Source: Alphaproteobacteria bacterium (GTDB taxonomy: Bacteria > Pseudomonadota > Alphaproteobacteria > Rhizobiales > Rhizobiaceae). Taken from it: 64,000 bases of DNA. Location: the NCBI GenBank assembly GCA_024742485.1, contig JANSYK010000002.1, positions 992,001-1,056,000 of the forward strand. The letters are read 5' to 3'. Made by a program: the position numbers and the translations under genes. The notes beneath the pieces were generated by a model. That model saw only the letters and a list, made by a program, of their open reading frames with translations, was not told the origin of the DNA and did not search any database. The stretch's first letter is position 1; every line of letters starts with the position of its first letter. Of this stretch, positions 51,430 through 64,000 are shown piece after piece.

Positions 51430-52737
51430 TTATTGGGATGGAAGCCACAGTGCCAGTTGCGGAAACGCGATCAACAGGGCGACGAGCAGCAGTGAACAGC
51501 CGATGAACGGGAAGGCCGACGTATAGATTTCGCGCATGGTCGTGCCCGGTGGCGACACCCCTTTCATGACGAATAATAAAAGCCCGAAGGGTGGTGTCGT
51601 GAAGCTGATCTCCAGCGCCAGAAGCATGATGAGCCCGAACCAGATCGGATCGAATCCGAGCGTCAGCGCCAGCGGAAAGAAAATCGGCACCGTCAGCAGC
51701 ATCATGGAAATCTGTTCCATGAACATGCCGAGCAACAACAGGACGGCAAACATCACCAACAGCATGGCAAGCGGCGCGAGGTCATAGGATGTGGCCCAGG
51801 TAACAAGGCCCCGCGAGGCGCCGGAAAAGGCCAGAAGCTGGCTGAAGGTCGCGGAGCCGAAGACGATCAGATAGGCCATCAGCGTGACCCGCAACGCGCC
51901 CGTCACCGATTTGCGCATCGCCATCCAGCTCAGGCAGCGAAAGACCGCCGCAAGGATCAGCACACCCAGCGCGCCGAACGCGGCGGCCTCGGACGGCGTC
52001 ACGAAACCGTTGATCATCAGGGCGATGATCACCACCATCACCCCGACCATCGGTACCACATCGCGCAAGAGCAGCAGCAGTTTTTGCGCGAGCGACAGCG
52101 GTTCCACATCATAGGCCGGCGCGGCATCGGGATCGATCCTGGTCTGCAGCCAGATCGTGCCGATATAGAACGCCGCCAGGATCAGCCCGGGAATGACGCC
52201 GGCAATCAGCAGGGCGCCCACATCGATCTGCGCCAGCGTCGCCAGCAGCACGGCAAGCGCCGATGGTGGAATGATGATCGCCAATCCGCCGGTGCCCAAA
52301 ATCGGCCCGATGCTCATATGGGACTTGTAGCCGCGGCGGCTCATCTCCGGCACCATCAGTGAGCCGAGCAGGGCGGTGGATCCCATCGAAGAGCCCGACA
52401 GGGTGGAAAATCCCGTGCCGCCGAGCACCGTGACATAGCTCAGCCGTCCGGGAAGCCGGCCCAGCAGCTTGTCGATCGCATTGAACATCCGGGCCCCGAG
52501 CCCGGTATGGAAGAAGATTTCACCCATCAGCAGAAACAGCGGGATGGGCACCAATGCGTATTTGGTCAGCGCGCCCAGGCCGTTGTTCAGAAGTTGGCCG
52601 ACACCGCGGTCGCCACCCATGAAGACCCATGCGCCAATGATATTGGCGGCCAGAAAGGCCAGGGCCACCGGCATGCCCACCGCCATCAGGACAACGATCG
52701 TGCCCACCAGAAGGGCGAGTGCCTCATACCATTCCAT
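51430..52737 (-). CDS. dctM: TRAP transporter large membrane subunit (DctM)
   Basis: 435 residues from ATG 52737, which overlaps the dctQ stop (TAATG). About 12 membrane spans, with GMPVALAFLAANIIGAW, GRLPGRLSYVTVLGGTGFSTLSGSSMGSTALLG and ITPSE-like GFVTPSEAAAFGAL signatures. It drives sodium-dependent uptake of an organic acid with DctQ and DctP. The longer frame to 53052 lies inside dctQ. Confidence 0.93.
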   Translation of the reverse strand: MEWYEALALLVGTIVVLMAVGMPVALAFLAANIIGAWVFMGGDRGVGQLLNNGLGALTKYALVPIPLFLLMGEIFFHTGLGARMFNAIDKLLGRLPGRLSYVTVLGGTGFSTLSGSSMGSTALLGSLMVPEMSRRGYKSHMSIGPILGTGGLAIIIPPSALAVLLATLAQIDVGALLIAGVIPGLILAAFYIGTIWLQTRIDPDAAPAYDVEPLSLAQKLLLLLRDVVPMVGVMVVIIALMINGFVTPSEAAAFGALGVLILAAVFRCLSWMAMRKSVTGALRVTLMAYLIVFGSATFSQLLAFSGASRGLVTWATSYDLAPLAMLLVMFAVLLLLGMFMEQISMMLLTVPIFFPLALTLGFDPIWFGLIMLLALEISFTTPPFGLLLFVMKGVSPPGTTMREIYTSAFPFIGCSLLLVALLIAFPQLALWLPSQ

Positions 52738-53243
52738 TATTCGTGAATTCCCGCTTCGCCGGTGTGCATCAGCTCCGAGCCGGTGACAAATCGCAAGAAC
52801 TCGATCGCCATCAGGCCAAAGCTGAGCGGGAAGGCAAATGTCAGCAGCCACCGCGGATAGTAATAGGCCCGCGTATCGACATCGCCGCGCTCGATATTGG
52901 TCAAAAACAGTTCGGCGCCCTTCCAGGCAAGGATGACGCAAACGGCAACACAGGCCAGTGCGACCGTCCGGCTCAAAATCCGGCGCGGATATTCCGGCAG
53001 GGCGGACGTCACCAGCTCGATGTGAACATGGCCTTTCTCCCGCACGAGCCATGGCGCGCCGAGCATGGTCATGTAAAGCAATCCGTATTCAGCGGATGTG
53101 AACAGCCAGGCAAAGGGCTGCAAACCGAAATTGCGCATCATCACCGATGTGATGACGGACACCATGAGCCACACCAACGTCGCGCCGGCGGCAAACGCCA
53201 TGGCGTAGAGCAGGGCCGTATAGGCTTTTTCGATTGCCTTCAT
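52737..53243 (-). CDS. dctQ: TRAP transporter small membrane subunit (DctQ)
   Basis: 168 residues from ATG 53243, four hydrophobic segments and the conserved DctQ region FTSAEYGLLYMTMLGAPWLVREKGHVHIELV. The frame continues upstream to 53297 across the hairpin, but the start at 53243 fits the family better. Confidence 0.88.
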   Translation of the reverse strand: MKAIEKAYTALLYAMAFAAGATLVWLMVSVITSVMMRNFGLQPFAWLFTSAEYGLLYMTMLGAPWLVREKGHVHIELVTSALPEYPRRILSRTVALACVAVCVILAWKGAELFLTNIERGDVDTRAYYYPRWLLTFAFPLSFGLMAIEFLRFVTGSELMHTGEAGIHE

Positions 53244-53263
53244 CTGTTCCGCCGTAAAAGCTT

Positions 53264-53289
53264 CGGGCCCGCCTCGATTGGCGGGCCCG
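53264..53289 (-). terminator. Strong hairpin between dctP and dctQ
   Basis: Perfect 10-bp GC-rich stem CGGGCCCGCC / GGCGGGCCCG with a 6-nt loop, 8 nt after the dctP stop. On the transcribed strand it is followed shortly by CTTTT. It may partially terminate or protect the dctP part of the transcript. Confidence 0.65.
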
Positions 53290-53297
53290 CTTGGCAA

Positions 53298-54308
53298 TCA
53301 GTTTGCGTCGAGATCGTAGAAATGCTCGATCAGCGTGTCGTAATTGGCGGTTCCGCCCGGCTGTTCAGCCATCAGGCCCTTCATCCGTTCCCAGGTCTTT
53401 TCCCGGGCTGCGGCAAGGTAGTTGGCCTTGGCTTCGCCTTCCAGCGACACGACCTTCATGCCGGCGGCATCAAGGGCTGCAAAGTCTTCGTCGCGCTTGG
53501 CCCGCAAGGCTGCAACGCTGTCCTTTTCATGCTGAATGGCGACATCCTGCAGGATCTTCTTGGATTCGTCGCTCAGGCTGTTCCATTTTTCCAGATTGAC
53601 GATGACGCCCAGATCGGTCGAGAAGAAGCACGGCTCGATGCGGTAGTTCAGGAACTCGTTCCATTTGAGGTCGATCAGGCCGATCTGTGTCCAGCCGGTG
53701 GCATCGACGACGCCACGCTGCAACGCGGAGTAGACCTCACCGGTCGGCAGGTCGATCACCTGAGCACCCAGATAGTTGGTAAAGAAGGCGTTGTAGACAT
53801 TGTTGCCGCGCAGCTTCAGACCCTCGACTTCCAGATTGCCGTCTGAATCGAAGGTCGGCGCTTCACGGGTCCACAGGTTGTAGCAGACACCGCTGTCGAA
53901 CCAGCCGAGATATTTCAGGCCCATTTTCTCCTGGTGAATCTTGTCGATCAGTTCGATGCCACCATTTTCGCGGGTTTCGACGGCCGTCAGGTTCGATGCC
54001 ACCATGGCATCCTTTTCCGGCAGGGCGCCGCCATAGAATGATCCGGGCGTGTAGACCATGTCGACAATTCCGTCGCGCACCGCGTCAGGTTGTTGGAACA
54101 TGCCGATGGCTTCCGGTCCGCCGCGCACGTCGATTTGCACCACGCCCTTGCCCGCTTCGTTCACCTTGTCCACGAAGGATAGGAAACTCTTGGTGTAGAT
54201 CAGGGTTTCCGGAAAGGCGTGTACCGCCGAAATCCTGTCTTCTGCCAGCGCGACGCCGGCGATGAGGGTTGATCCGGCGACGATGCCGCCCAGAACGATG
54301 TTTCTCAT
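53298..54308 (-). CDS. dctP: TRAP transporter substrate-binding protein (DctP)
   Basis: 336 residues with a signal peptide (MRNIVLGGIVAGSTLIAGVALA) and a DctP fold: AVHAFPETLIYTKSFLSFVDKVNEAGKG, MVYTPGSFYGGALPEKDAMVAS, and LRGNNVYNAFFTNYLGAQVIDLPTGEVYSALQRGVVDATGWTQ with the ligand-binding region. The usual carboxylate-binding arginine (K/L-L-R-x) is present at LKLRGNN. It binds a carboxylate in the periplasm; the adjacent catabolic genes suggest their substrate is its ligand. Confidence 0.92.
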   Translation of the reverse strand: MRNIVLGGIVAGSTLIAGVALAEDRISAVHAFPETLIYTKSFLSFVDKVNEAGKGVVQIDVRGGPEAIGMFQQPDAVRDGIVDMVYTPGSFYGGALPEKDAMVASNLTAVETRENGGIELIDKIHQEKMGLKYLGWFDSGVCYNLWTREAPTFDSDGNLEVEGLKLRGNNVYNAFFTNYLGAQVIDLPTGEVYSALQRGVVDATGWTQIGLIDLKWNEFLNYRIEPCFFSTDLGVIVNLEKWNSLSDESKKILQDVAIQHEKDSVAALRAKRDEDFAALDAAGMKVVSLEGEAKANYLAAAREKTWERMKGLMAEQPGGTANYDTLIEHFYDLDAN

Positions 54309-54380
54309 TGTCTTCCTCCATTGCTGGGAATGCGTTGACCGTCATTCCCCGGTTTAAAGGCTCTTTTCAGATGCCCAACT

Positions 54381-54398
54381 GCGCCGGCTTGCCGGCGC
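54381..54398 (-). terminator. Hairpin between leuD-like and dctP genes
   Basis: Perfect 8-bp stem GCGCCGGC / GCCGGCGC with a 2-nt loop, starting 3 nt after the leuD-type stop. Transcription from leuD can probably continue into dctP; no T tract is seen. Confidence 0.5.
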
Positions 54399-54401
54399 CT
54401 C

Positions 54402-55016
54402 TCAATCCGCCGCTGCGGGCCATGCCCACGACGCGGTTTGACTTCGATTGTTCCGAAACCTGTCGATGGCCGCAGCGTGCTGCAGCGTCAGGTCTATGTC
54501 GTCCCATCCATTGATCAGCTTGGTGCGCCAGCTCTCATCGAGTTCGAAGGGCAGCACCGTTTCCCCATGGGCAATCTGCCGGCGTTCAAGATCGATATGT
54601 GTGTCGGCCGCACCATCACCCAGCAATTCGGCAAGAAGCGCCGCGTGTTCCGGATCGATACGAGCCGGCAGAAGGCCATTATTAACCGCATTGCCGGCAA
54701 AGATGTCCCCGAAGCTCGGGGCGACAACCGCCCGGATTCCGGCATCGACAAGCGCGTAAACCGCCGCTTCCCGTGACGAACCGGTGCCGAAATGGTGTCC
54801 GGCGACCAATATGCTGATCCCGTCTTCCCGGTTGAGCGGAAAGGCCGGATGAAGGTCGCCCGTTTCGTCACGGCGAAGGTCGTGAAGCAGGTAGTCCCCA
54901 TAGCCTTCACTGCGCGGGACCGACATGAATCGGGCAGGGATCAACTGGTCGGTGTCCACGTGATCGAGCGGCAGGACGACAGTTCTCCCCTTGTGGCGTG
55001 TCCAGCCGGCCATCAT
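54402..55016 (-). CDS. Aconitase-family dehydratase small subunit (LeuD-like)
   Basis: 204 residues, the length of LeuD. The swivelling domain has TDQLIPARFM near 22-31, VAGHHFGTGSSREAAVYALVDAG (about 71-93) and APSFGDIFAGNAVNNGLLP. In biosynthetic LeuD the recognition loop after GSSRE normally reads HAPWAL; here it is AAVYAL, so the substrate is probably not isopropylmalate. Four-nt overlap with the large subunit gene. Citraconate, dimethylmaleate or a related unsaturated diacid are candidates (inference). Confidence 0.88.
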   Translation of the reverse strand: MMAGWTRHKGRTVVLPLDHVDTDQLIPARFMSVPRSEGYGDYLLHDLRRDETGDLHPAFPLNREDGISILVAGHHFGTGSSREAAVYALVDAGIRAVVAPSFGDIFAGNAVNNGLLPARIDPEHAALLAELLGDGAADTHIDLERRQIAHGETVLPFELDESWRTKLINGWDDIDLTLQHAAAIDRFRNNRSQTASWAWPAAAD

Positions 55017-56419
55017 GCAGCCCTCCTGTCGAGCAGTTGCCGGACATCCGAAATCTGGCCGGTGACGGCGGCCGCGGCAACCATGGCAGGCGACATCAGA
55101 TGGGTGCGGGCGCCGCGACCCTGCCGGCCACGGAAATTACGGTTTGTCGACGAGGCGCAGCGCTCTCCCGGTGCAACCACATCGCCATTCATGCCGACGC
55201 ATAGTGAACAACCGGACTCGGCCCATTCGAGACCGGCCTCGGTGAAAATCCGGTCAAGACCTTCCTGTTCCGCCTGTGCCTTGACGCGCGCCGAACCGGG
55301 CGAAACCAGTCCGGGCACCTTGGCGCGGCGTCCGGCGAGTACCGCACTTGCGGCACGAAGGTCCTCGATCCGGCCATTGGTGCAGGATCCGATGAACACT
55401 TGATCGACAGGCGTTCCGGCAATCGGCTGTCCGGCCGAGAGCCCCATATAGTCGAGCGCCGTCTTCGCGGCTTCGGCCCTTTGATCCGGCAGGTGTGCGG
55501 GATCGGGAATGCTGGCATTGACGGGCACGGCCTGTTCCGGGCTGGTGCCCCATGTCACGGTCGGCGCTATGTCGGCCGCATCGAAATGCGCGGTGCGCGC
55601 AAATTCCGCCTGATCGTCGGATTTGAGCGTGGCCCATGCCTCCACGGCCTTTTCCCAGGCATCGCCACGTGGCGCGAAGGGCCGGCCTTTGACATAGGCC
55701 ATTGTCGTTTCATCCGGCGCGATCATGCCAAATCGCGCACCGCCCTCGATGGACAGGTTGCAAAGGGTCATGCGCCCTTCCATCGACAGGCCGGTGATCG
55801 CGCTGCCGGCATATTCCACCGCATGTCCCTGTGCGCCGCCGGTACCGAGGGTGGCGATCCAGTTCAGGGCGATGTCTTTTGCAGTCACGCCCGGGCCAAG
55901 GGTGCCCTCGACCATGATCCGCATGGCCAACGGTTTCCGCTGCCAGATGGTCTGGGTCGCCAGAACGTGGGCCACCTGGGTGGCGCCGATCCCGAATGCC
56001 AGCGCACCGAAGGCGCCATGGGTTGATGTGTGGCTGTCGCCACAATTGATCAGGAGACCCGGCAGGGTCAGGCCCTGTTCCGGCCCGATCACATGGACAA
56101 TGCCTTGCCGCGGATCGTCCAGATCGAAGAGCTGCAGCCCGTGCTGTTTCGTGTTGGTTCTCAGTGTTTCGATCATCCGGCTGATCTGGGGAGGCATGCC
56201 CCGATCGCGGTTCCGGGTCGGCGCGTAGTGATCGACGACGCCGAAAGTCAACGACGGCGCGCTAACGGAGGCACCGCGCGCCGCCAAATTGGCAAAGGCG
56301 TGATGGGATCCCTCATGCACCAGGTGGCGGTCGACCCACAGCAATGACGTGCCGTCGTCGCGCTGCAGGATCTCATGGGCCGACCAGAGTCTGTCGAGAA
56401 GGGTGGCGGGCATTGTCAT
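55013..56419 (-). CDS. Aconitase-family dehydratase large subunit (LeuC-like)
   Basis: 468 residues with all three [4Fe-4S] cysteines: C346 in FIGSCTNGRIEDLR and C404/C407 in SGCSLCVGMNGD, plus GDSHTSTHGAFGALAFGIG. It catalyses a reversible hydration-dehydration of a hydroxy-diacid with LeuD. Its ATG overlaps the stop of the upstream GntR gene (ATGA) and its own stop overlaps leuD, so regulator and enzyme are co-translated. Context points to catabolism, not leucine synthesis; a duplicate biosynthetic pair is expected elsewhere. Confidence 0.9.
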   Translation of the reverse strand: MTMPATLLDRLWSAHEILQRDDGTSLLWVDRHLVHEGSHHAFANLAARGASVSAPSLTFGVVDHYAPTRNRDRGMPPQISRMIETLRTNTKQHGLQLFDLDDPRQGIVHVIGPEQGLTLPGLLINCGDSHTSTHGAFGALAFGIGATQVAHVLATQTIWQRKPLAMRIMVEGTLGPGVTAKDIALNWIATLGTGGAQGHAVEYAGSAITGLSMEGRMTLCNLSIEGGARFGMIAPDETTMAYVKGRPFAPRGDAWEKAVEAWATLKSDDQAEFARTAHFDAADIAPTVTWGTSPEQAVPVNASIPDPAHLPDQRAEAAKTALDYMGLSAGQPIAGTPVDQVFIGSCTNGRIEDLRAASAVLAGRRAKVPGLVSPGSARVKAQAEQEGLDRIFTEAGLEWAESGCSLCVGMNGDVVAPGERCASSTNRNFRGRQGRGARTHLMSPAMVAAAAVTGQISDVRQLLDRRAA

Positions 56420-57198
56420 GCGCCACCGTCATCATGCTGGCCGATGGCCGGTTCCCAATGGCGGGTGTTGCCGCTGCCAACCCGCGACAGCGACATGTCC
56501 AGCCGGAACATGTCGGGGCGGTAGAGTGCCGACAGATATTCCACGCCATTGTTGTCCACATCCCTGACGACCCGTTTGAGCGACAAGAGGGCGGAGCCGA
56601 CGGCGACACCCAATGCCTCCGCGACGTCCGGGCCTGCTAGGGTGGCCGACACGGATTGATGGGCTTCCTTGATCTGCACGCCGCTGCGCTCAAGCAGTTT
56701 GAACAATGGCGTCGTGGCCAGATCGTCCTCTGAATAATTCTGGGCAATCGACGCCGGGACATAGGTCGTCAGATGCGAAAAGGGAGCGTTTTCGGCGATC
56801 CGGACCCGGGTGGCGATCTGAACCTTTTCCTGTTTCGAAAGGTCCATGGCCCGCGTCACGAATTCCGGCGCTGGCCCGTAGGAGAAAGACAGCAGGCGCG
56901 CAGTGGTGCTCTGTCCCATCTCCGCAAGCTGCGGCATCAGGGTGGTGAAATCCATCGCCACCGGTTTTTCCTGCTGGTCGGTTCTGCGGACGGTCGAGCC
57001 ACTGCCGGCGCGCCGGACGATCAGACCGCTATCCGCCAGGACATCGAGCGCCCTGCGAACCGTGACGCGCGAGACACCGAAACTCTCCGCAAGGCGCTGC
57101 TCTCCGGGCAGGCTTTCCCCAACACCAAGCTGCCCGTCGGCGATCTGATCGCGCAGGGACAGATAGACGCGTCGCGCCTTGGCACCCTCAGGAAGCAT
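56416..57198 (-). CDS. GntR family regulator, HutC/UTRA subfamily
   Basis: 260 residues from ATG 57198. Winged helix (ARRVYLSLRDQIADGQLGVGESLPGEQRLAESFGVSRVTVRRALDVLADSGLIVRRAGSGSTV) and a UTRA effector domain ending SALLSLKRVVRDVDNNGVEYLSALYRPDMFRLDMSL. It is the first gene of the leftward operon and faces the rightward operon, with a perfect palindrome in between. Probably a repressor released by the pathway substrate or an intermediate. Confidence 0.9.
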   Translation of the reverse strand: MLPEGAKARRVYLSLRDQIADGQLGVGESLPGEQRLAESFGVSRVTVRRALDVLADSGLIVRRAGSGSTVRRTDQQEKPVAMDFTTLMPQLAEMGQSTTARLLSFSYGPAPEFVTRAMDLSKQEKVQIATRVRIAENAPFSHLTTYVPASIAQNYSEDDLATTPLFKLLERSGVQIKEAHQSVSATLAGPDVAEALGVAVGSALLSLKRVVRDVDNNGVEYLSALYRPDMFRLDMSLSRVGSGNTRHWEPAIGQHDDGGA

Positions 57199-57327
57199 GG
57201 CAGTCCCACGTCTTTCCACGTCTCGAAATCCTCCCAAAAATCGCCCATATGGTAGCTCGGCTTTTGAAAAAATCAAGCTAATGTATTTTTTGGTCGTAAT
57301 TTTTTGTCTTAACAAATGACCATAACA

Positions 57328-57345
57328 TGTATTATAGATAATACA
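57328..57345. promoter_or_regulatory. Candidate HutC-type operator
   Basis: Perfect palindrome TGTATTAT-AG-ATAATACA in the 168-bp divergent region, 21 bp upstream of the rightward start codon. Its TGTA...TACA ends match the style of HutC-family operators. The surrounding region is AT-rich, as expected for promoters. Confidence 0.6.
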
Positions 57346-57366
57346 GGTTGATCATGGGAGGATGAG

Positions 57367-57936
57367 ATGCCAATTGTCGAATTGCATCTCCTGGAAGGCT
57401 ATGGATCGGATGTAAAGCGCCGCCTCGGCGAGGCGTTGACCGATGCGGTGCGCTTTGTTTTGCCGGCCGATCCTGACGCTGTCACCATCATGATCCACGA
57501 AATGCAGCCCGATGCCTATTACCGCGGCCGCAGGCCGCGCAACCCTGCATCGGCGCATCCTGAACCGGCGACCGCGGTCAAAACGTTCCTGCAGGCCATG
57601 GAGCAGCGGGACCTGGACAGGGCCGAAGCCATGCTGGATGACAATTTCACGATGCAGTTTCCCGGAACCGGTCCCATGACCCGGCTTGTTGAATTGCTTG
57701 ATTGGGCCGGACCGCGCTACCGTTTTGTGACCAAGACCTATGAGGGATTTGATGCGCTGCAGACAGCCGGTCCCGCCTCCGTTGTCTATTGCCGGGGAAC
57801 TCTCTCCGGTGAATGGCCGGATGGGACGGGTTTCGATGGCATCCGCTTCATTGACCGGTTCGAGTTGGTTGGCGGGAAAATCACCAGACAGGACGTCTGG
57901 AACGATATTGCTGAAACCAGAACGAGTGGTGGTTAG
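57367..57936 (+). CDS. Tautomerase-like plus NTF2/SnoaL-like fusion protein
   Basis: 189 residues. Residues 1-58 look like a 4-oxalocrotonate-tautomerase-type unit: Pro2 directly after Met, the strand PIVELHLLEGYGSDVKRRLGEALTDAV and the second strand AVTIMIHEMQPDAYYRGG-like ending. Residues 66-185 form an NTF2/SnoaL fold (TFLQAMEQRDLDRAEAMLDDNFTMQFPGTGPM, GIRFIDRFELVGGKITRQDVWND). Both parts suggest isomerisation of an unsaturated acid. ATG 57367 follows GGGAGG with 5-nt spacing. First gene of the rightward operon. Confidence 0.75.
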   Translation: MPIVELHLLEGYGSDVKRRLGEALTDAVRFVLPADPDAVTIMIHEMQPDAYYRGRRPRNPASAHPEPATAVKTFLQAMEQRDLDRAEAMLDDNFTMQFPGTGPMTRLVELLDWAGPRYRFVTKTYEGFDALQTAGPASVVYCRGTLSGEWPDGTGFDGIRFIDRFELVGGKITRQDVWNDIAETRTSGG

Positions 57937-57942
57937 TTCGAC

Positions 57943-59637
57943 ATGAGTGACATTGATCCCATCACCCTATCGGTTCTGGCCGGGCGCATGGAGCAGATTG
58001 CCGACGAAATGGATGCAACGCTGTTCCGGGCCGCGTTCAACCCCATCATTGCCGAAGCTCATGATGCGAGCCATGGTTTGTACCACGCTGAAACCGGCGA
58101 CACGCTGGTGCAGGGCAAATCCGGCCTGCCGATCTTTGTCGGAGTCATGTCCTTTGCCGTTCAGGCGGTCATCGAAAAGGCTGCCATTGATGGCGACCTA
58201 GCGGATGGTGACATCTATATTTTCAACGACGCCCATATTGGCGGGACTCATCTCAGCGACATGCGGCTTGTCAGACCCTATTTCCGCGATGGCCGGCTGT
58301 TTTGCTATCTGGCGTCGGTGGGGCACTGGCACGACGTCGGCGGCGCCGTTCCGGGCAATTACAATCCCGCCGCCACCGAAGTGTTTCAGGAGGCTTTCGT
58401 TCTGCCGCCGGTCAAGCTGGCCCGGGGCGGCGAAGTCAATCAGGACATCATCGACATCCTGCTTCGCAACACCCGCCTGCCGCAATCGGCCATGGGTGAC
58501 CTGAACGGGCAGATGGGGGCTCTTGATCTCGGCGTCAGGCGAATGGACGAATTGCTGGATGAATACGGTGCGGACACCATCCGGTCCGCGCTGGATGCGC
58601 TGGGACACCGGGCCGAAGCATTGATGCGGTCCGAACTGGAGGCTCTGCCAAACGGGCGCTGGGAAGCCGAAGATTTCCTCGACAATGACGGCATTACCGA
58701 TGACCCGCTGACGATCCGAGTCGGACTGGAAATAAAGGATGACACCATGCGCCTCGATTTCACCGGCACAGCGGCGCAGTGCGCAGGCCCGGTGAACATT
58801 GCGCTGCCCACCACGGTGGCGACCGCCTATGTGGCGATCAAGCATATCTTTCCCGCATTGCCTGCCAATGCCGGTGTGATGCGGCCGATTGAGGTCGAAG
58901 TGCCGGGAGGTTCGTTGCTGTCGGCGCAATTTCCTGCCCCGACCGGTGGCTATACAGAAACCATCTTGCGGATGATCGACGTGATTTTCTCGGCCTTTGC
59001 AAAGGCGGCGCCCGAACGGGTGGTGGCCAATGCCTACGGCACGATCAACGCGCTGTCGATCGCCGGCAAGCGCAGCAATGGTCAGCCCTGGGTCATGTTC
59101 AGTTTTTACGGCGGCGGACATGGCGGTTCGCCCGAAACGGACGGGCTGAACCACGGAAATGCTCCCATTTCAACCGCAACCATTCCGCCAATGGAAATTC
59201 TGGAGGCGGCCTATCCGGTGATGTTCCGGCAGTGGGCCCTACGTGCCGACAGTGCCGGCATTGGCACCCATCGCGGCGGCATGGGTGCGATTTACGAGAT
59301 CGAGGTGCTGGAGGAAAATGGCGCGGAGGCGTTTCTTTTCGGCGAGCGCGGACGCTTTTCGCCCAAGGGCATAGCCGATGGAGGAGACGCCGCGCTCAAT
59401 GTCTTTTCCTATGAACAGGATGATGGCTGGAAACAGCCTCCGCTTGCTTCCAAGATTCGCGGCATACAGTTGAAGCAGGGCCAGGCGGTTCGGCTCGAAA
59501 CGCCGGGCGGCGGCGGTTACGGTGCAGCCGAGCAGCGCCAGGCGGCCGACGTGGCACTGGATGTTGCCCGTGGTCTCGTCAGCGCCGAAGAAGCCGACCG
59601 CGCCTATGGACCAGACTGGCGGGAGATCTCGTCATGA
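57943..59637 (+). CDS. hyuB: Hydantoinase B/oxoprolinase subunit
   Basis: 564 residues. Family features: ITLSVLAGRMEQIADEMDATLFRAAFNPIIAEAHDASHGLYH, FNDAHIGGTHLSDM, SVGHWHDVGGAVPGNYNPAATEVFQE and GGGGYG near the C terminus. With HyuA it forms ATP-dependent amidohydrolases (N-methylhydantoinase, 5-oxoprolinase) or acetone-carboxylase-like enzymes. Six nt after the fusion gene and ATGA overlap with hyuA. The substrate is not known. Confidence 0.9.
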   Translation: MSDIDPITLSVLAGRMEQIADEMDATLFRAAFNPIIAEAHDASHGLYHAETGDTLVQGKSGLPIFVGVMSFAVQAVIEKAAIDGDLADGDIYIFNDAHIGGTHLSDMRLVRPYFRDGRLFCYLASVGHWHDVGGAVPGNYNPAATEVFQEAFVLPPVKLARGGEVNQDIIDILLRNTRLPQSAMGDLNGQMGALDLGVRRMDELLDEYGADTIRSALDALGHRAEALMRSELEALPNGRWEAEDFLDNDGITDDPLTIRVGLEIKDDTMRLDFTGTAAQCAGPVNIALPTTVATAYVAIKHIFPALPANAGVMRPIEVEVPGGSLLSAQFPAPTGGYTETILRMIDVIFSAFAKAAPERVVANAYGTINALSIAGKRSNGQPWVMFSFYGGGHGGSPETDGLNHGNAPISTATIPPMEILEAAYPVMFRQWALRADSAGIGTHRGGMGAIYEIEVLEENGAEAFLFGERGRFSPKGIADGGDAALNVFSYEQDDGWKQPPLASKIRGIQLKQGQAVRLETPGGGGYGAAEQRQAADVALDVARGLVSAEEADRAYGPDWREISS

Positions 59638-61697
59638 GCGGGCGTATGATTGGTGTTGATGTCGGTGGCACATTTACCGATGTTTTTGTGCTCAACGAGG
59701 CCGATGGCACAGCATCGGTTGCCAAGGTTCCCACCACGCGGCCGGATCAGTCAGGCGGATTTCTCGACGGGATCGGGCGCGAAGTGTCCGATCTGTCGCA
59801 GATTGCCGTCGTGGTCCATGGCACGACTGCCGGCACCAATGCGTTGCTGGAGCGCAAGGGTGCCAGGACCGGGGTCATCTGTACCGCGGGCCTGCGCGAC
59901 GTTCTGGAAATGCGTCGCCGCGATCGGCCCCGCACCTGGGGCCTGCGCGGTGATTTCGAACCGGTTGTCGACCGCCGCAACCGGCTGGAGGTTCCGGAAC
60001 GCACCCTGGCGGACGGCACCATCCGAACGCCCGTTGATCTTGATGCCGTTCGGGCTGCCGCTACGCAACTGTTGAGCCAGGATTGCGCCGCGGTTTCCAT
60101 CCTGTTTGCCAACGCCTATGCCAATCCGGAAAACGAGGCCGCCGCCGTGGCGGCGGTTCGCGACATGTGGCCCAATCCGCATGTCTCGGCGTCCTCGGAG
60201 ATTCTGCCTGAAATTCGCGAGTTCGAACGGTTTTCCACCACGGCGCTCAACGCCTATCTGCAACCCGAGGTATCTGGCTATCTCGGCCGCCTCGAAGCTG
60301 CACTTAAATCCGGGGGCTTTGACGGCGAATTCATGATCGTCCAGTCCAATGGCGGGGTCATGGCCGTGGACACGGCATGCCGCCTGCCGGTGCGCACGGC
60401 GTTGTCGGGGCCGGCAGCCGGTGTCATTGCCGCCGGTTACATTGCATCATCGGCCGGTTTCGACAATGTGATTACCGGCGATATGGGCGGCACCAGTTTC
60501 GATGTCTCTCTGATTGCCGAGGGGCAGTCGATGCTCTCGCCGCAAACCTCCATTGATTTTGGCATGGTTGTCCGTGCACCGATGATCGAAATCACCACCA
60601 TCGGTGCCGGTGGCGGTTCCATCGCCTGGGTCGACAAGGGCGGCTTGCTCAATATCGGGCCTGAAAGTGCCGGCTCCGATCCCGGCCCGGTCGCCTATGG
60701 GCTGGGCAATGATCGGCCAACGGTTACCGACGCGAATGTCGTTCTGGGCCGGATCGATCCGGACAATCCCATTGGCGGTCAGCTGGAACGCCTTGATGTC
60801 GAGGCGGCAGCAAGGGCCATCGACACCCATGTCGGTAGGCCGCTTGACCTGGACACGCTGTCGGCGGCGGAAGCGATATTGCGCGTGGCGAATTCACGCA
60901 TGGCCGGGGCCATCCGGCTTGTTAGCATCGAACGCGGGTACGATCCCAAGCGCTTTGCCTTCATGCCATTCGGCGGCGGCGGTGCGCTGCATGCCGGCGC
61001 GATGCTCGCCGAGGTCGGGATTGCCCGCGCCATCGTACCGCGATATCCGGGTGTGACCTCGGCCATGGGATGCGTGATCGCCGACATGCGTCAGGACTTT
61101 GTGCAGACGATCAACACGCTTGTCAGCGGTCTGGACGAAGAGGTGCTCGGTCAACATATGCAGACCCACACGGACCAGGGCATGGCGCTGCTGGATGCGG
61201 CACGGACCAGTTTCGAGACGCGGAAAGTCAGTTTCGAACTCGACATGGCCTATATTGGACAGACGCACACCGTCTCCGTTCCGCTATCGGTCCAGATGGA
61301 GGGGAACACGGTGTCCGTGCCGTCGAAATCCGAGATCGAGGTCGCCTTCGACCGGGCCTACGAGGCAACCTTCGGGCGGCTCCTCAAAAATGGCGTCCGG
61401 CGGATCATCAACTTGCGCAGCGCGGTGACCGGATTGCGTCCGAAATTCGACCTTCGGACCCTTGCACCGGCAACAAGTGGCCCGGTTGCACCAAAATCAA
61501 CACGTTCGGTGCATTTTGACGACCGTTGGCATGAAACGGCGATCCATGACCGCCTTGCTCTTCCGGTCGGGACGCAAATAGATGGTCCGGCCATACTGGA
61601 GCAACCCGACACGACGGTTCTCATCGAGCCTGGGCTGACCGGACGCGTCGACCGTTTCGGCAACACGATAATCGAACCCTCGGAGGACGTCCGATGA
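59634..61697 (+). CDS. hyuA: Hydantoinase A/oxoprolinase subunit
   Basis: 687 residues, ASKHA-type ATPase: MIGVDVGGTFTDVFVLNE, VVHGTTAGTNALLERKGARTGVICTAGLRDVLEMRRRDRPRTWGL, TGDMGGTSFDVSLIAEG and PFGGGGALHAGAMLAEVGI. It activates the substrate by ATP-dependent phosphorylation for the HyuB part. Start and stop codons overlap both neighbours by 4 nt, supporting equal expression. Confidence 0.9.
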   Translation: MSGRMIGVDVGGTFTDVFVLNEADGTASVAKVPTTRPDQSGGFLDGIGREVSDLSQIAVVVHGTTAGTNALLERKGARTGVICTAGLRDVLEMRRRDRPRTWGLRGDFEPVVDRRNRLEVPERTLADGTIRTPVDLDAVRAAATQLLSQDCAAVSILFANAYANPENEAAAVAAVRDMWPNPHVSASSEILPEIREFERFSTTALNAYLQPEVSGYLGRLEAALKSGGFDGEFMIVQSNGGVMAVDTACRLPVRTALSGPAAGVIAAGYIASSAGFDNVITGDMGGTSFDVSLIAEGQSMLSPQTSIDFGMVVRAPMIEITTIGAGGGSIAWVDKGGLLNIGPESAGSDPGPVAYGLGNDRPTVTDANVVLGRIDPDNPIGGQLERLDVEAAARAIDTHVGRPLDLDTLSAAEAILRVANSRMAGAIRLVSIERGYDPKRFAFMPFGGGGALHAGAMLAEVGIARAIVPRYPGVTSAMGCVIADMRQDFVQTINTLVSGLDEEVLGQHMQTHTDQGMALLDAARTSFETRKVSFELDMAYIGQTHTVSVPLSVQMEGNTVSVPSKSEIEVAFDRAYEATFGRLLKNGVRRIINLRSAVTGLRPKFDLRTLAPATSGPVAPKSTRSVHFDDRWHETAIHDRLALPVGTQIDGPAILEQPDTTVLIEPGLTGRVDRFGNTIIEPSEDVR

Positions 61698-62314
61698 GCG
61701 ATCCGAAAGACTGGGATCTCACACGCACCGCCTTGCTGACGATTGATCTGCAGAATGATTTTATCCATCCGGAAGGCGCCTATGGGAGGGCCGGTCAGAC
61801 AGCCGAGAACATAGCGGCATTGCCGACCCGGGTAGCGCCGATCGCCGCTGCATTACGGGCAAGGGGTGGAACATATGTTTCGGCCCAATTCACGCTTGTT
61901 CCGGGTCCCGATGGCGAACCGTTGATTGCGCCGCATCTCAAGCAGCTTCGACCGTTCCTTGGCCGCGGCGATTTTGCTCCCGGCAGTTTCGGACATGCAC
62001 TTGTCGATTCGCTTCAACCGGCTGATTTCGTGATCGAAAAGGTCGCCTATTCGGCCTTCTACCAAACCCGGCTGGAGTACATCATGCGGGCCGTCGACAT
62101 TGACCGGCTGATCGTCGGTGGGATTGTCACCAATGGCGGTGTGGCCTCGACGCTGCGGGATGCGCATCTGCGGAACATCGAAACCGTCATGCTCACCGAC
62201 GGATGCGCTGCCTTCCGGCAGGATGTGCATGATGCGACCCTCCTTTCGCTGGGGACGGTGACCCGTCAAATGCAATGCAACGACGCATTGACATGGTTGG
62301 AGGATTCGGCATGA
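61694..62314 (+). CDS. Isochorismatase-fold hydrolase lacking the catalytic cysteine
   Basis: 206 residues. Family residues D18 (LTIDLQNDF) and K116 (VIEKVAYSAF) are present, but at the nucleophile position the sequence is IVTNGGVASTLRDA, giving Gly149 instead of Cys. In true isochorismatases (PhzD type) this position is also non-Cys and the enzyme cleaves a vinyl ether; Cys members are amidases. So this is probably not a Cys amidase. ATGA overlaps on both sides. Confidence 0.87.
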   Translation: MSDPKDWDLTRTALLTIDLQNDFIHPEGAYGRAGQTAENIAALPTRVAPIAAALRARGGTYVSAQFTLVPGPDGEPLIAPHLKQLRPFLGRGDFAPGSFGHALVDSLQPADFVIEKVAYSAFYQTRLEYIMRAVDIDRLIVGGIVTNGGVASTLRDAHLRNIETVMLTDGCAAFRQDVHDATLLSLGTVTRQMQCNDALTWLEDSA

Positions 62315-63174
62315 GCATTCGCGAGCGCATTGCCAAAAGAGATATTCTGATTGCCCCCGGCGTCTATGACGGTCTGACAGCCTCGCTGGCCGAAGCGGCA
62401 GGATTCGAGTCGCTCTATCTGAGCGGGGCGGCGGTCGCCTATACCCGGTTGGGACGGCCGGATATCGGGCTGACATCGGTTACCGAAATGGCAGAAACGA
62501 TGACGCTGATCGCCGACCGGACAGCGCTGCCGGTGATCATCGATGCGGATACGGGATTTGGCAATGCGTTGAACGCCCAGCGCACAATGCGCCTTTACGA
62601 GCGTGCCGGTGCCTCCGCCCTGCAGGTCGAGGATCAGACCTATCCGAAGCGCTGCGGTCACCTTGCCGACAAGTCGCTGATTTCGACAGGCGAAATGACC
62701 GGCAAGGTCCGGGCGATGGCAGATGCCCGTCACTCTGAGGACACGCTGATCATCGCTCGCACCGATGCCGTGGCCGTTGAAGGTTTTCAGGCGGCGATCG
62801 ATCGGGCGGAATCCTATCTGGAAGCCGGTGCCGATGTCCTGTTCATCGAGGCACCGCAATCGCGCGAGCAGATGAACGCCATCAGCATGCAATTCGATGG
62901 TCGTGCGCCGCTGCTCGCCAATATGGTGGAAGGTGGTGCGACACCGATCAGCAGCGCTGCGGATTTGCAGGATCAGGGGTTTTCCATCGTCATTTTCCCT
63001 GGCGGTATTGTCCGGGCCCTGGCCCATACTGCACAGGCCTATTATCAAAGCCTGCATGCGCATGGCAGCAATCGGCCCTTCGCTGACCGGATGTTCGACT
63101 TTCCCGGACTGAACGAAGTGATCGGAACGAAGGAAATGCTCGCCAAGGGCGCTGAATATGACGCAAAGGAATAG
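62311..63174 (+). CDS. Isocitrate lyase/PEP mutase family lyase
   Basis: 287 residues from ATG 62311. Metal-binding DADTG (78-82) and active-site KRCGH (113-117) after LQVEDQTYP are intact, together with APGVYDGLTASLAEAAGFE at the N terminus. The family cleaves C-C bonds of 2-hydroxy diacids (methylisocitrate lyase, 2,3-dimethylmalate lyase, oxaloacetate decarboxylase) or C-P bonds. KRCGH with its cysteine points to the lyase group. With the LeuCD-like hydratase it would cleave the hydrated product to pyruvate and another acid (inference). The longer frame from 62275 lies inside the previous gene. Confidence 0.9.
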   Translation: MSIRERIAKRDILIAPGVYDGLTASLAEAAGFESLYLSGAAVAYTRLGRPDIGLTSVTEMAETMTLIADRTALPVIIDADTGFGNALNAQRTMRLYERAGASALQVEDQTYPKRCGHLADKSLISTGEMTGKVRAMADARHSEDTLIIARTDAVAVEGFQAAIDRAESYLEAGADVLFIEAPQSREQMNAISMQFDGRAPLLANMVEGGATPISSAADLQDQGFSIVIFPGGIVRALAHTAQAYYQSLHAHGSNRPFADRMFDFPGLNEVIGTKEMLAKGAEYDAKE

Positions 63175-64000
63175 CCCGGTCGCGCCTCCGCCCGAGTGTT
63201 TCGATCTCGACAGTGAAACGCTCATCATCGGCGCTGGCGCTTGCGGATTGATTGCCGCGCTTTCTGCAAGGGAAAGCGGACAGGAAGTGCTGGTCATCGA
63301 AGCCGATCCGGTTCCCAGCGGCTCGACGGCACTATCGGCCGGCCTGATTCCGGCTGCGGGCACGAAAATCCAGAAGTCGGCCGGCATCACGGACGATGCC
63401 CGGCTGTTTGCACAGGATATCCAGGCCAAGGCCCACAACGAAAACGAACAGGCTCTGGTCGACACCCTGACCGAAAATGCAGCGCCGCTCATAGACTGGT
63501 TGATGGACCATCACGGACTGCCCTTCTCTCTGGTCAGTGATTTCGACTATCCCGGCCACAGCCGGCGGCGCATGCATGGTCTGCCGAGCCGATCGGGCGC
63601 CGAACTGATTGACGCGCTGCGTGCGGCCTGTGAAGAGGAGCAGATAGACATCATCTGCGAGCGCCGCGCCGGGTTGCTCTTTCATGAGAACGGCGTCGTT
63701 CGCGGTGTTGGCGTCCTGCGCCCGGACGGTGTCCGCGAAACCATCGGCTGCAGGAAACTGATCCTGGCGTGCAATGGTTTTGGTGGCAACCGTGAACTCG
63801 TCAGTGAGCACATGCCCGACATCAAAGGCGGGCTCTGGTTCGGACATGACGGCAATCGTGGAGAGGCTGTGCATTGGGGACAGGCCCTTGGTGCCGAATT
63901 GCGTCATCTCGGCGCCTATCAGGGCCATGGTAATGTGGCCCATCCACACGGCATCTTGATCAGTTGGGCGGTGATCACCGAGGGCGGGATTCAGGTCAAC
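63158..64000 (+). CDS. FAD-binding oxidoreductase (FrdA/ketosteroid-dehydrogenase type), 3' end outside window
   Basis: Frame open from ATG 63158 to the window edge, 281 codons. Dinucleotide motif ETLIIGAGACGLIAALSARESGQEVLVIE with GAGACG at 25-30, STALSAGLIPAAGT, and later KLILACNGFGGN and GHDGNRGEAVHWGQALGAEL, typical of FAD_binding_2 flavoproteins that introduce or reduce a C=C bond next to a carbonyl. It overlaps the lyase gene by 17 nt. Its C-terminal part is missing, so the subfamily is open. Likely the next enzyme of the pathway. Confidence 0.87.
   Translation, partial: MTQRNSPVAPPPECFDLDSETLIIGAGACGLIAALSARESGQEVLVIEADPVPSGSTALSAGLIPAAGTKIQKSAGITDDARLFAQDIQAKAHNENEQALVDTLTENAAPLIDWLMDHHGLPFSLVSDFDYPGHSRRRMHGLPSRSGAELIDALRAACEEEQIDIICERRAGLLFHENGVVRGVGVLRPDGVRETIGCRKLILACNGFGGNRELVSEHMPDIKGGLWFGHDGNRGEAVHWGQALGAELRHLGAYQGHGNVAHPHGILISWAVITEGGIQVN

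Follow-up and report, generated by a model that had tools for sequence, protein, structure and literature searches.

The 64,000-nucleotide stretch of alphaproteobacterial DNA analysed here (the window; contig C102:992001-1056000 of a 6.87 Mb genome) carries two divergent operons on either side of an intergenic palindrome. Together they may form a substrate-induced catabolic regulon for a small five-membered-ring imide or lactam with a carboxyethyl side chain. Its most likely substrate is hematinic acid and/or its dihydro form, an assignment that we put forward tentatively and at somewhat less than an even chance. The leftward operon encodes, in order, a GntR/UTRA regulator, LeuC, LeuD, DctP, DctQ and DctM, and the rightward operon encodes a tautomerase-NTF2 fusion, HyuB, HyuA, an isochorismatase-fold protein (ISC), a lyase of the ICL/PEP-mutase (PEPM) family and an FAD-dependent dehydrogenase. 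A preliminary description of this DNA had proposed import, ring opening, hydration and carbon-carbon cleavage. That logic is well supported, and the class of substrates proposed here is narrower than the one first suggested.

Conservation of the neighbourhood

The neighbourhood was compared across genomes starting from two of its proteins. A search with the tautomerase-NTF2 fusion across 385 genomes of the class gave matches in 29, among them the window genome, and yielded 28 stretches of at most 20 kb from 27 of the other 28 genomes. An alignment search of genome contigs with ISC gave 80 named loci (the best 80 of 283 confirmed). A further ISC search across 394 genomes of the family to which the window belongs gave matches in 37, again counting the window genome, and 36 neighbourhoods were taken from these. 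The pooled set held 121 loci with an ISC at 50% identity or more, or 116 distinct loci once 5 duplicates were removed; the fetched stretches (145 in all, up to about 20 kb) span some 10 kb per side.

The neighbourhood is kept across these 116 ISC-centred loci, as expected of the single divergent regulon that had been described. The lyase is present in 106 and the FAD gene in 95, the lyase occurs together with some hydratase in 91, and the tautomerase-NTF2 fusion, which recurs in other genomes, was matched in 48. The transporter is of the ABC type in 46 loci and of the TRAP type in 37, with both in 1 and none seen in 32. Carriers among the best 80 of 283 loci include Sulfitobacter, Roseobacter, Shimia, Marivita, Phaeobacter, Bradyrhizobium, Bosea, Methylobacterium, Azospirillum and others; by title nearly all are Alphaproteobacteria, and one unverified bin is titled Flavobacteriia.

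The cluster proteins of the window are 66-91% identical to their counterparts in Sulfitobacter sediminilitoris (L069), whereas the window genome shares its genus with Nitratireductor sp. XY-223 (locus L172, of the same-genus genome G609, duplicates L095). To judge from this likeness, the cluster was probably transferred horizontally between families.

Interchangeable hydratases and lyases

LeuC (55013-56419, minus strand; PF00330, E 1.6e-155) and LeuD (54402-55016, minus strand; NF002458 and TIGR00171 above cut-off) are the large and small subunits of an aconitase-family hydratase. Both pass leucine-family cut-offs (TIGR00170, 631.6 bits against 560; TIGR00171, 150 against 116). The pair is not the only copy in the genome, which has another leuC at C44:383384 and another leuD at C102:173021; a role as isopropylmalate isomerase in leucine biosynthesis was therefore rejected. 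The window LeuC is 55.6% identical to the other leuC, and the LeuD loop reads PARFMS in the window versus PKDYLK in the other leuD. Cysteines C346, C404 and C407 of LeuC, which we take to be the Fe-S ligands, are retained in 48 type-1 relatives, one gapped row excepted.

Across the 116 loci the hydratase is type-1 LeuC alone in 46, type-2 LeuC alone in 35, PrpD alone in 7 and a mixture in 6, with none seen in 22. The type-2 LeuC is about 35-39% identical to the window LeuC, and type-2 LeuCD (one LeuC and one LeuD tested) falls in the homoaconitase (hacA_fam) and LeuD/DmdB subfamilies. The PrpD assignment is based on MmgE/PrpD domains in L059 (E 3e-36 and 6e-34). Genes of the MmgE/PrpD and/or the Asp/Glu/hydantoin-racemase family (PF01177), often paired, adjoin the core in L059, L060, L109, L116, L130 and L192. 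By hand count, 25 of 37 readable type-2 LeuD loops have Lys or Arg at the position of an Arg in the solved small subunit of homoaconitase (2pkp), an Arg that presumably binds a carboxylate; Val stands there in the solved isopropylmalate/citramalate isomerase subunit 3vba. The relatives' type-2 enzymes thus resemble the archaeal-type homoaconitase/isopropylmalate isomerase in subfamily and at this position, but they score under the homoaconitase equivalog cut-offs, and the window carries the other LeuCD type. The type-1 LeuD loops gave no comparable hint of a substrate.

The lyase (62311-63174, plus strand) carries the KRCGH form of the KxCGH motif, and its catalytic cysteine C127 is present in 103 of 103 relatives. 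Among solved structures it matches 2-methylisocitrate lyases best, and 2,3-dimethylmalate lyase (3fa3) follows closely. It shares family and catalytic motif with PrpB and 2,3-dimethylmalate lyase but differs in falling under the prpB equivalog cut-off (TIGR02317, 299 bits versus 354). The genome has four further members of the ICL/PEPM family.

No PEPM lyase was seen in 10 of the 116 loci. In one of them (L191, 14421-18712), from a genome in the same genus as the window genome, HyuAB, ISC and LeuCD are present, and a CaiB-type CoA-transferase gene and an HMG-CoA-lyase-family gene adjoin LeuCD. In another (L121, 11396-15533) the same LeuCD-CaiB-HMG-CoA-lyase group lies beside ISC, with neither PEPM lyase nor HyuAB in the stretch. 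These two are the only lyase-less loci of the ten in which this replacement was seen. Because two unrelated options for bond breaking and three kinds of hydratase fill the corresponding slots, hydration followed by retro-Claisen cleavage appears to be the most economical reading of the family chemistry. The pathway logic is likewise strengthened by the replacement of hydratase, transporter and lyase by unrelated genes.

In L057, L058 and L063 a tandem NTF2-domain protein adjoins a PEPM lyase of 54-57% identity and no HyuAB was seen within the stretch, so that the lyase-NTF2 pair also occurs apart from the ring-opening module.

Proposed ring opening and an isochorismatase-fold protein without its cysteine

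HyuB (57943-59637, plus strand; PF02538, E 9e-167) and HyuA (59634-61697, plus strand; PF01968, E 1e-89) carry Hydantoinase_B and Hydantoinase_A domains, and HyuA is presumably the ATP-binding subunit. Both match the CapAB/OplAB/HyuAB family of caprolactamases, oxoprolinases and hydantoinases over nearly their full length. The pair differs from that family in its setting within a hydratase-lyase pathway and in scoring at most about half the caprolactamase equivalog cut-off of 1000 bits (beta model, 310 bits for HyuB; alpha model, 503 bits for HyuA; the best NCBIfam models for each). The ring opened here is likely to be a five-membered imide or lactam, unlike that of caprolactamase. ATP-dependent lactam opening by relatives of HyuAB is described in two papers (PMC8453981, PMC11033972).

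ISC (61694-62314, plus strand; PF00857, E 7e-31) was modelled with a predicted local distance difference test score (pLDDT) of 94. The nearest structures to the model are RutB, a putative isochorismatase, and the triuret (TrtA) and biuret (BiuH) hydrolases, with maleamate amidases and isochorismatases lower among the matches. ISC shares with these cysteine amidohydrolases the fold (template modelling score about 0.7-0.8), the Asp and the Lys. They have a nucleophilic Cys, whereas ISC has Gly (G149, in TNGGVAST) in all 114 readable sequences of the 116 distinct loci, where D18 and K116 are kept; the alignment with TrtA places its Cys at G149. The 80 named loci were picked by ISC-alignment similarity with patterns that include D18 and K116, so only G149 is unbiased there. 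With the Asp-Lys-Cys triad incomplete, an ordinary amidase role for this protein is not supported and was rejected. Gly at the Cys position is also found in true isochorismatases. In a dialkylmaleamate the neighbouring carboxylate readily expels the amine, and an ISC acting on such a compound may no longer need a Cys because the substrate's own carboxylate could take its place.

The same facts bear on a classic hydantoin, ureide or lactam pathway, in which HyuAB would make an N-carbamoyl or amide acid for ISC to hydrolyse, and the hydratase and lyase would act on an acid that is not maleimide-derived. The HyuAB family spans hydantoinases and lactamases, as one paper describes (PMC8453981), the fold neighbours of ISC are ureidoacrylate, triuret and biuret hydrolases, and some variants of the cluster have the PF01177 genes mentioned above. 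Such a pathway nevertheless seems quite unlikely, given the change of the catalytic Cys to Gly throughout, and given that a hydantoin-derived amino acid would need neither a hydratase nor a KxCGH lyase.

Linkage to glutaryl-CoA dehydrogenase

A gene for a glutaryl-CoA dehydrogenase (GCDH) relative lies directly after the core genes, on the same strand, in 8 of the 105 loci whose downstream sequence covers 1.2 kb or more (L083, L085, L087, L090, L107, L115, L181 and L193; 11 further loci are cut). The aligned gaps between core and GCDH are 23-250 bp. The linked enzyme of L107 matches solved GCDHs with 587 and 549 bits, and all eight are 77-100% identical to it. In six of the eight, the next gene is a CaiB gene resembling glutarate CoA-transferase; its best-scoring family is succinate-glutarate CoA-transferase (533 bits in L107 and 529 in L083; cut-off 750). 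A ninth case is L192 (seen in L196), where SUGCT, GCDH and FAD genes lie directly upstream and LeuCD past them. No GCDH of at least 70% identity was found elsewhere in the 145 stretches, and the 24 tautomerase-NTF2 stretches without this ISC gene, several of which still hold other cluster genes, have no GCDH.

On a FastTree phylogeny of HyuA (107 rows, 7 of the 8 linked loci included; long branches L127 and L191 flagged), the linkage trait requires 6 changes, at least 5 of them forced by well-supported branches. Shuffled labels gave a mean of 6.9 changes, with 61 of 500 shuffles as low as the observed 6, which indicates that the trait is scattered and was not inherited once. The linked gcdH is the sole match in its genome at E 1e-60 in six of eight searched genomes that have such a linkage (G752, G632, G778-G781) and one of two matches in G423 and G782.

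These counts can also be read as an incidental linkage, the cluster degrading an acid that is not deducible from the present data. The small number of linked loci and the scatter on the tree speak for this; direct adjacency on the same strand in all eight, at least five independent placements and the lack of GCDH elsewhere in the stretches speak against it, and we regard it as decidedly unlikely.

From glutarate to a candidate substrate

The reactions, and above all the identity of the substrate, we infer from this linkage and from family chemistry. Lyases of the ICL/PEPM family convert a 2-hydroxy-3-carboxy acid to R-CO-COOH and a carboxylic acid. If the acid released is glutarate, the intermediate would be of the 2-(2-carboxyethyl)malate type, preceded by a homoaconitate-like maleate. 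The Lys or Arg seen in 25 of 37 type-2 LeuD loops fits such a maleate. A maleate with a 2-carboxyethyl group and a methyl on its other carbon has as its imide hematinic acid, 3-methyl-4-(2-carboxyethyl)maleimide, a fragment of heme, bilins and chlorophyll. Dihydrohematinic acid should arise from the reduced ring D of chlorins, and using it would require an FAD dehydrogenase of the fumarate reductase/TcuA kind. Such a gene, fumarate-reductase/tricarballylate-dehydrogenase-like, is present (63158-64000, plus strand, running past the window to C102:1056543, the whole gene being L005 15158-16543; PF00890, E 3e-55). Its product scores below the TcuA cut-offs (144 of 369 and 94 of 373 bits) and that of TIGR01813 (240 bits; cut-off 285), and its solved relatives are flavocytochrome c3 and urocanate reductase.

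The nicotinate fermentation of Eubacterium barkeri ends with dimethylmaleate hydratase followed by 2,3-dimethylmalate lyase. The window resembles it in a LeuCD-like hydratase and a KxCGH lyase, here within one regulon, and departs from it in adding HyuAB, the Cys-less ISC and the FAD dehydrogenase, and in that the relatives' linked genes suggest glutarate. Genes for methyleneglutarate (B12-dependent) mutase, methylitaconate isomerase and nicotinate conversion are absent from the window's 12 genes, and none was noticed among the recurrent neighbours, on which no family models were run.

The same chemistry on dimethyl- or ethylmethylmaleimide, as first suggested, would give pyruvate with propionate or butyrate (or 2-oxobutyrate with propionate). 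It has in its favour the hydratase and lyase families of the nicotinate fermentation and the closeness of the lyase to methylisocitrate lyase and to 3fa3; moreover, substrates may still vary between paralogous clusters. Dimethylmaleate itself would yield propionate, while the linked gene is a GCDH relative and does not belong to a propionyl-CoA route, and no propionate gene was seen in 11 of 14 recurrent neighbour groups inspected by eye. An alkylmaleimide substrate is therefore held to be unlikely, and hematinic acid or its dihydro form is favoured over dimethylmaleimide because of the glutarate-type linkage together with HyuAB ring opening. The earlier guess of a tetrapyrrole fragment thus becomes more specific, owing to the GCDH and CoA-transferase linkage in several lineages, and dimethylmaleate, the analogy first drawn, is not supported as the actual intermediate.

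A nicotinate-type route in which HyuAB opens the lactam 6-oxo-tetrahydronicotinate would also lead to glutarate. An aerobic rhizobial nicotinate route ends in glutarate, consistent with the GCDH linkage. Yet this route is very improbable: it leaves the hydratase and lyase without a step, and no nicotinate or 6-hydroxynicotinate oxidoreductase occurs in the window's 12 genes or was noticed among the recurrent neighbours, where no family search was made.

For hematinic acid and its dihydro form, the proposed route would start with import by the TRAP transporter (ABC in some relatives) and release of the GntR/HutC repressor from the palindrome. The FAD enzyme, acting on the ring or on the opened acid, would desaturate the dihydro form to the maleic level. 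HyuAB would open the ring with ATP, and the Cys-less ISC would release ammonia, perhaps with the neighbouring carboxylate of the substrate as nucleophile. LeuCD (elsewhere type-2 LeuCD or PrpD) would hydrate 2-methyl-3-(2-carboxyethyl)maleate to the malate, and the lyase would cleave this to pyruvate and glutarate. Glutarate would then pass through a CoA-transferase to GCDH, the genes for which adjoin the cluster in some relatives and lie elsewhere in the window genome. It is conceivable, if rather doubtful, that this amounts to a widespread alphaproteobacterial route from hematinic and dihydrohematinic acid to ammonia, pyruvate and glutarate via acids of the 2-methyl-homoaconitate and 2-methyl-homoisocitrate type, in which the lyase would have a new specificity and an amidase lacking its cysteine would borrow a carboxylate of the substrate.

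Several points weigh against this assignment. GCDH also serves in lysine and tryptophan breakdown, and since the linked copy is often the only one in its genome, the linkage is no proof that the lyase releases glutarate. There is no linked GCDH in 97 of the 105 loci, the window's included; the single gcdH of the window genome and its glutarate CoA-transferase are both on contig C154, apart from one another. The best NCBIfam models for the linked enzyme are FadE-type, its GCDH model reaches 210-229 of 470 bits with no cut-off passed, the solved structure it matches best is that of an unspecified acyl-CoA dehydrogenase (4w9u), and the linked CoA-transferase scores under its family cut-off. In 21 of the 116 loci no FAD gene was seen and in 22 no hydratase, some being cut by contig ends. 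Lys/Arg is lacking in 12 of the 37 type-2 LeuD loops, and that signature is inapplicable to the window's type-1 LeuD. Ammonia release by a Cys-less protein of amidase fold is a conjecture, the tautomerase-NTF2 protein has no firm role in the pathway, and we know of no citable HyuAB that acts on a maleimide. Finally, genes for tetrapyrrole cleavage were not noticed in the flanks of the cluster, which were judged by recurrence and by eye and not by a gene-by-gene scan.

Regulation and layout of the locus

The presence of the palindrome AACATGTATTATAGATAATACAGGTT at 57324-57349, a candidate operator, was confirmed, and its core TGTATTA-N4-TAATACA has no other mismatch-free site in the whole genome. 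Among 33 intergenic regions, those of relatives and the window's own, 21 retain this core with up to 3 mismatches, versus 7 of 660 shuffled sequences. Because the core is exact only once in the window genome and is retained in relatives, the GntR/UTRA regulator (56416-57198, minus strand; PF00392, PF07702) most likely acts locally. A wider regulon was rejected: with up to 2 mismatches the genome gives 8 matches versus 10 for a reversed-pattern control, and one exact site only. The longest open reading frame of the regulator starts at TTG 57315; we chose the in-frame ATG at 57198 by eye, which leaves about 168 bp of intergenic DNA.

All genes named in the preliminary description were found in place, with Pfam matches above cut-off. 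Small corrections concern DctQ, a separate gene not named there, the start sites of DctM, GntR and the lyase, which lie later, and the FAD gene, which extends beyond the window. The lyase probably starts at 62311, a choice made by eye (its longest open reading frame runs from 62275). DctM, the large TRAP permease (51430-52737, minus strand; TIGR00786 above cut-off), matches PF06808 (E 2e-74) over residues 117-533 of a 540-residue open reading frame; this frame reaches 53052 and appears too long, the start probably being near 52737. DctQ, the small permease (52737-53297, minus strand; PF04290, E 9e-24), has a called counterpart at 20 of the 80 named loci. DctP, the solute-binding protein (53298-54308, minus strand; PF03480, E 4e-25), has 4mnc as its nearest solved relative (E 1e-49), and its ligand was dropped as a clue to the substrate because 4mnc is too distant for ligand transfer. 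The rightward operon opens with the fusion of a 4-OT-type tautomerase and a SnoaL/NTF2 domain (57367-57936, plus strand; PF01361, E 3e-8; PF12680, E 2e-7).

Most junctions had been said to overlap by 1-4 nt. With corrected starts, worked by hand, this is so for 6 of 11 (DctM/DctQ, LeuD/LeuC, LeuC/GntR, HyuB/HyuA, HyuA/ISC and ISC/lyase); the remaining five are +6, -17, 0 (+54 if DctQ starts later) and +93 nt and the divergent gap. Beyond the FAD gene and outside the cluster lies a convergent gene (L005 16526-19882, minus strand) for a protein of 1118 residues with Trans_reg_C and AAA ATPase domains.

Significance

A search of the open-access literature by title and start of abstract found no account of this gene set or of bacterial use of hematinic acid; the compound name alone was not searched. 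The compound does occur in nature: one paper reports hematinic acid in leaves and cites its occurrence in lake sediments and in senescent leaves (PMC7318184), another reports it from leaves 45 million years old (PMC12860425), and a review has E. coli ChuS releasing it from heme (PMC11442138). Chlorophyll turnover is put on the scale of 10^12 kg yearly (PMC7318184), and the monopyrrolic end products of chlorophyll occur in leaves and sediments. If the assignment is true, the cluster would supply enzymes, and a marker gene, for the last step in the recycling of heme and pigments in marine and soil environments. Should the exact substrate prove wrong, the cluster is still a conserved pathway without an assigned role that carries an unusual Cys-less enzyme.

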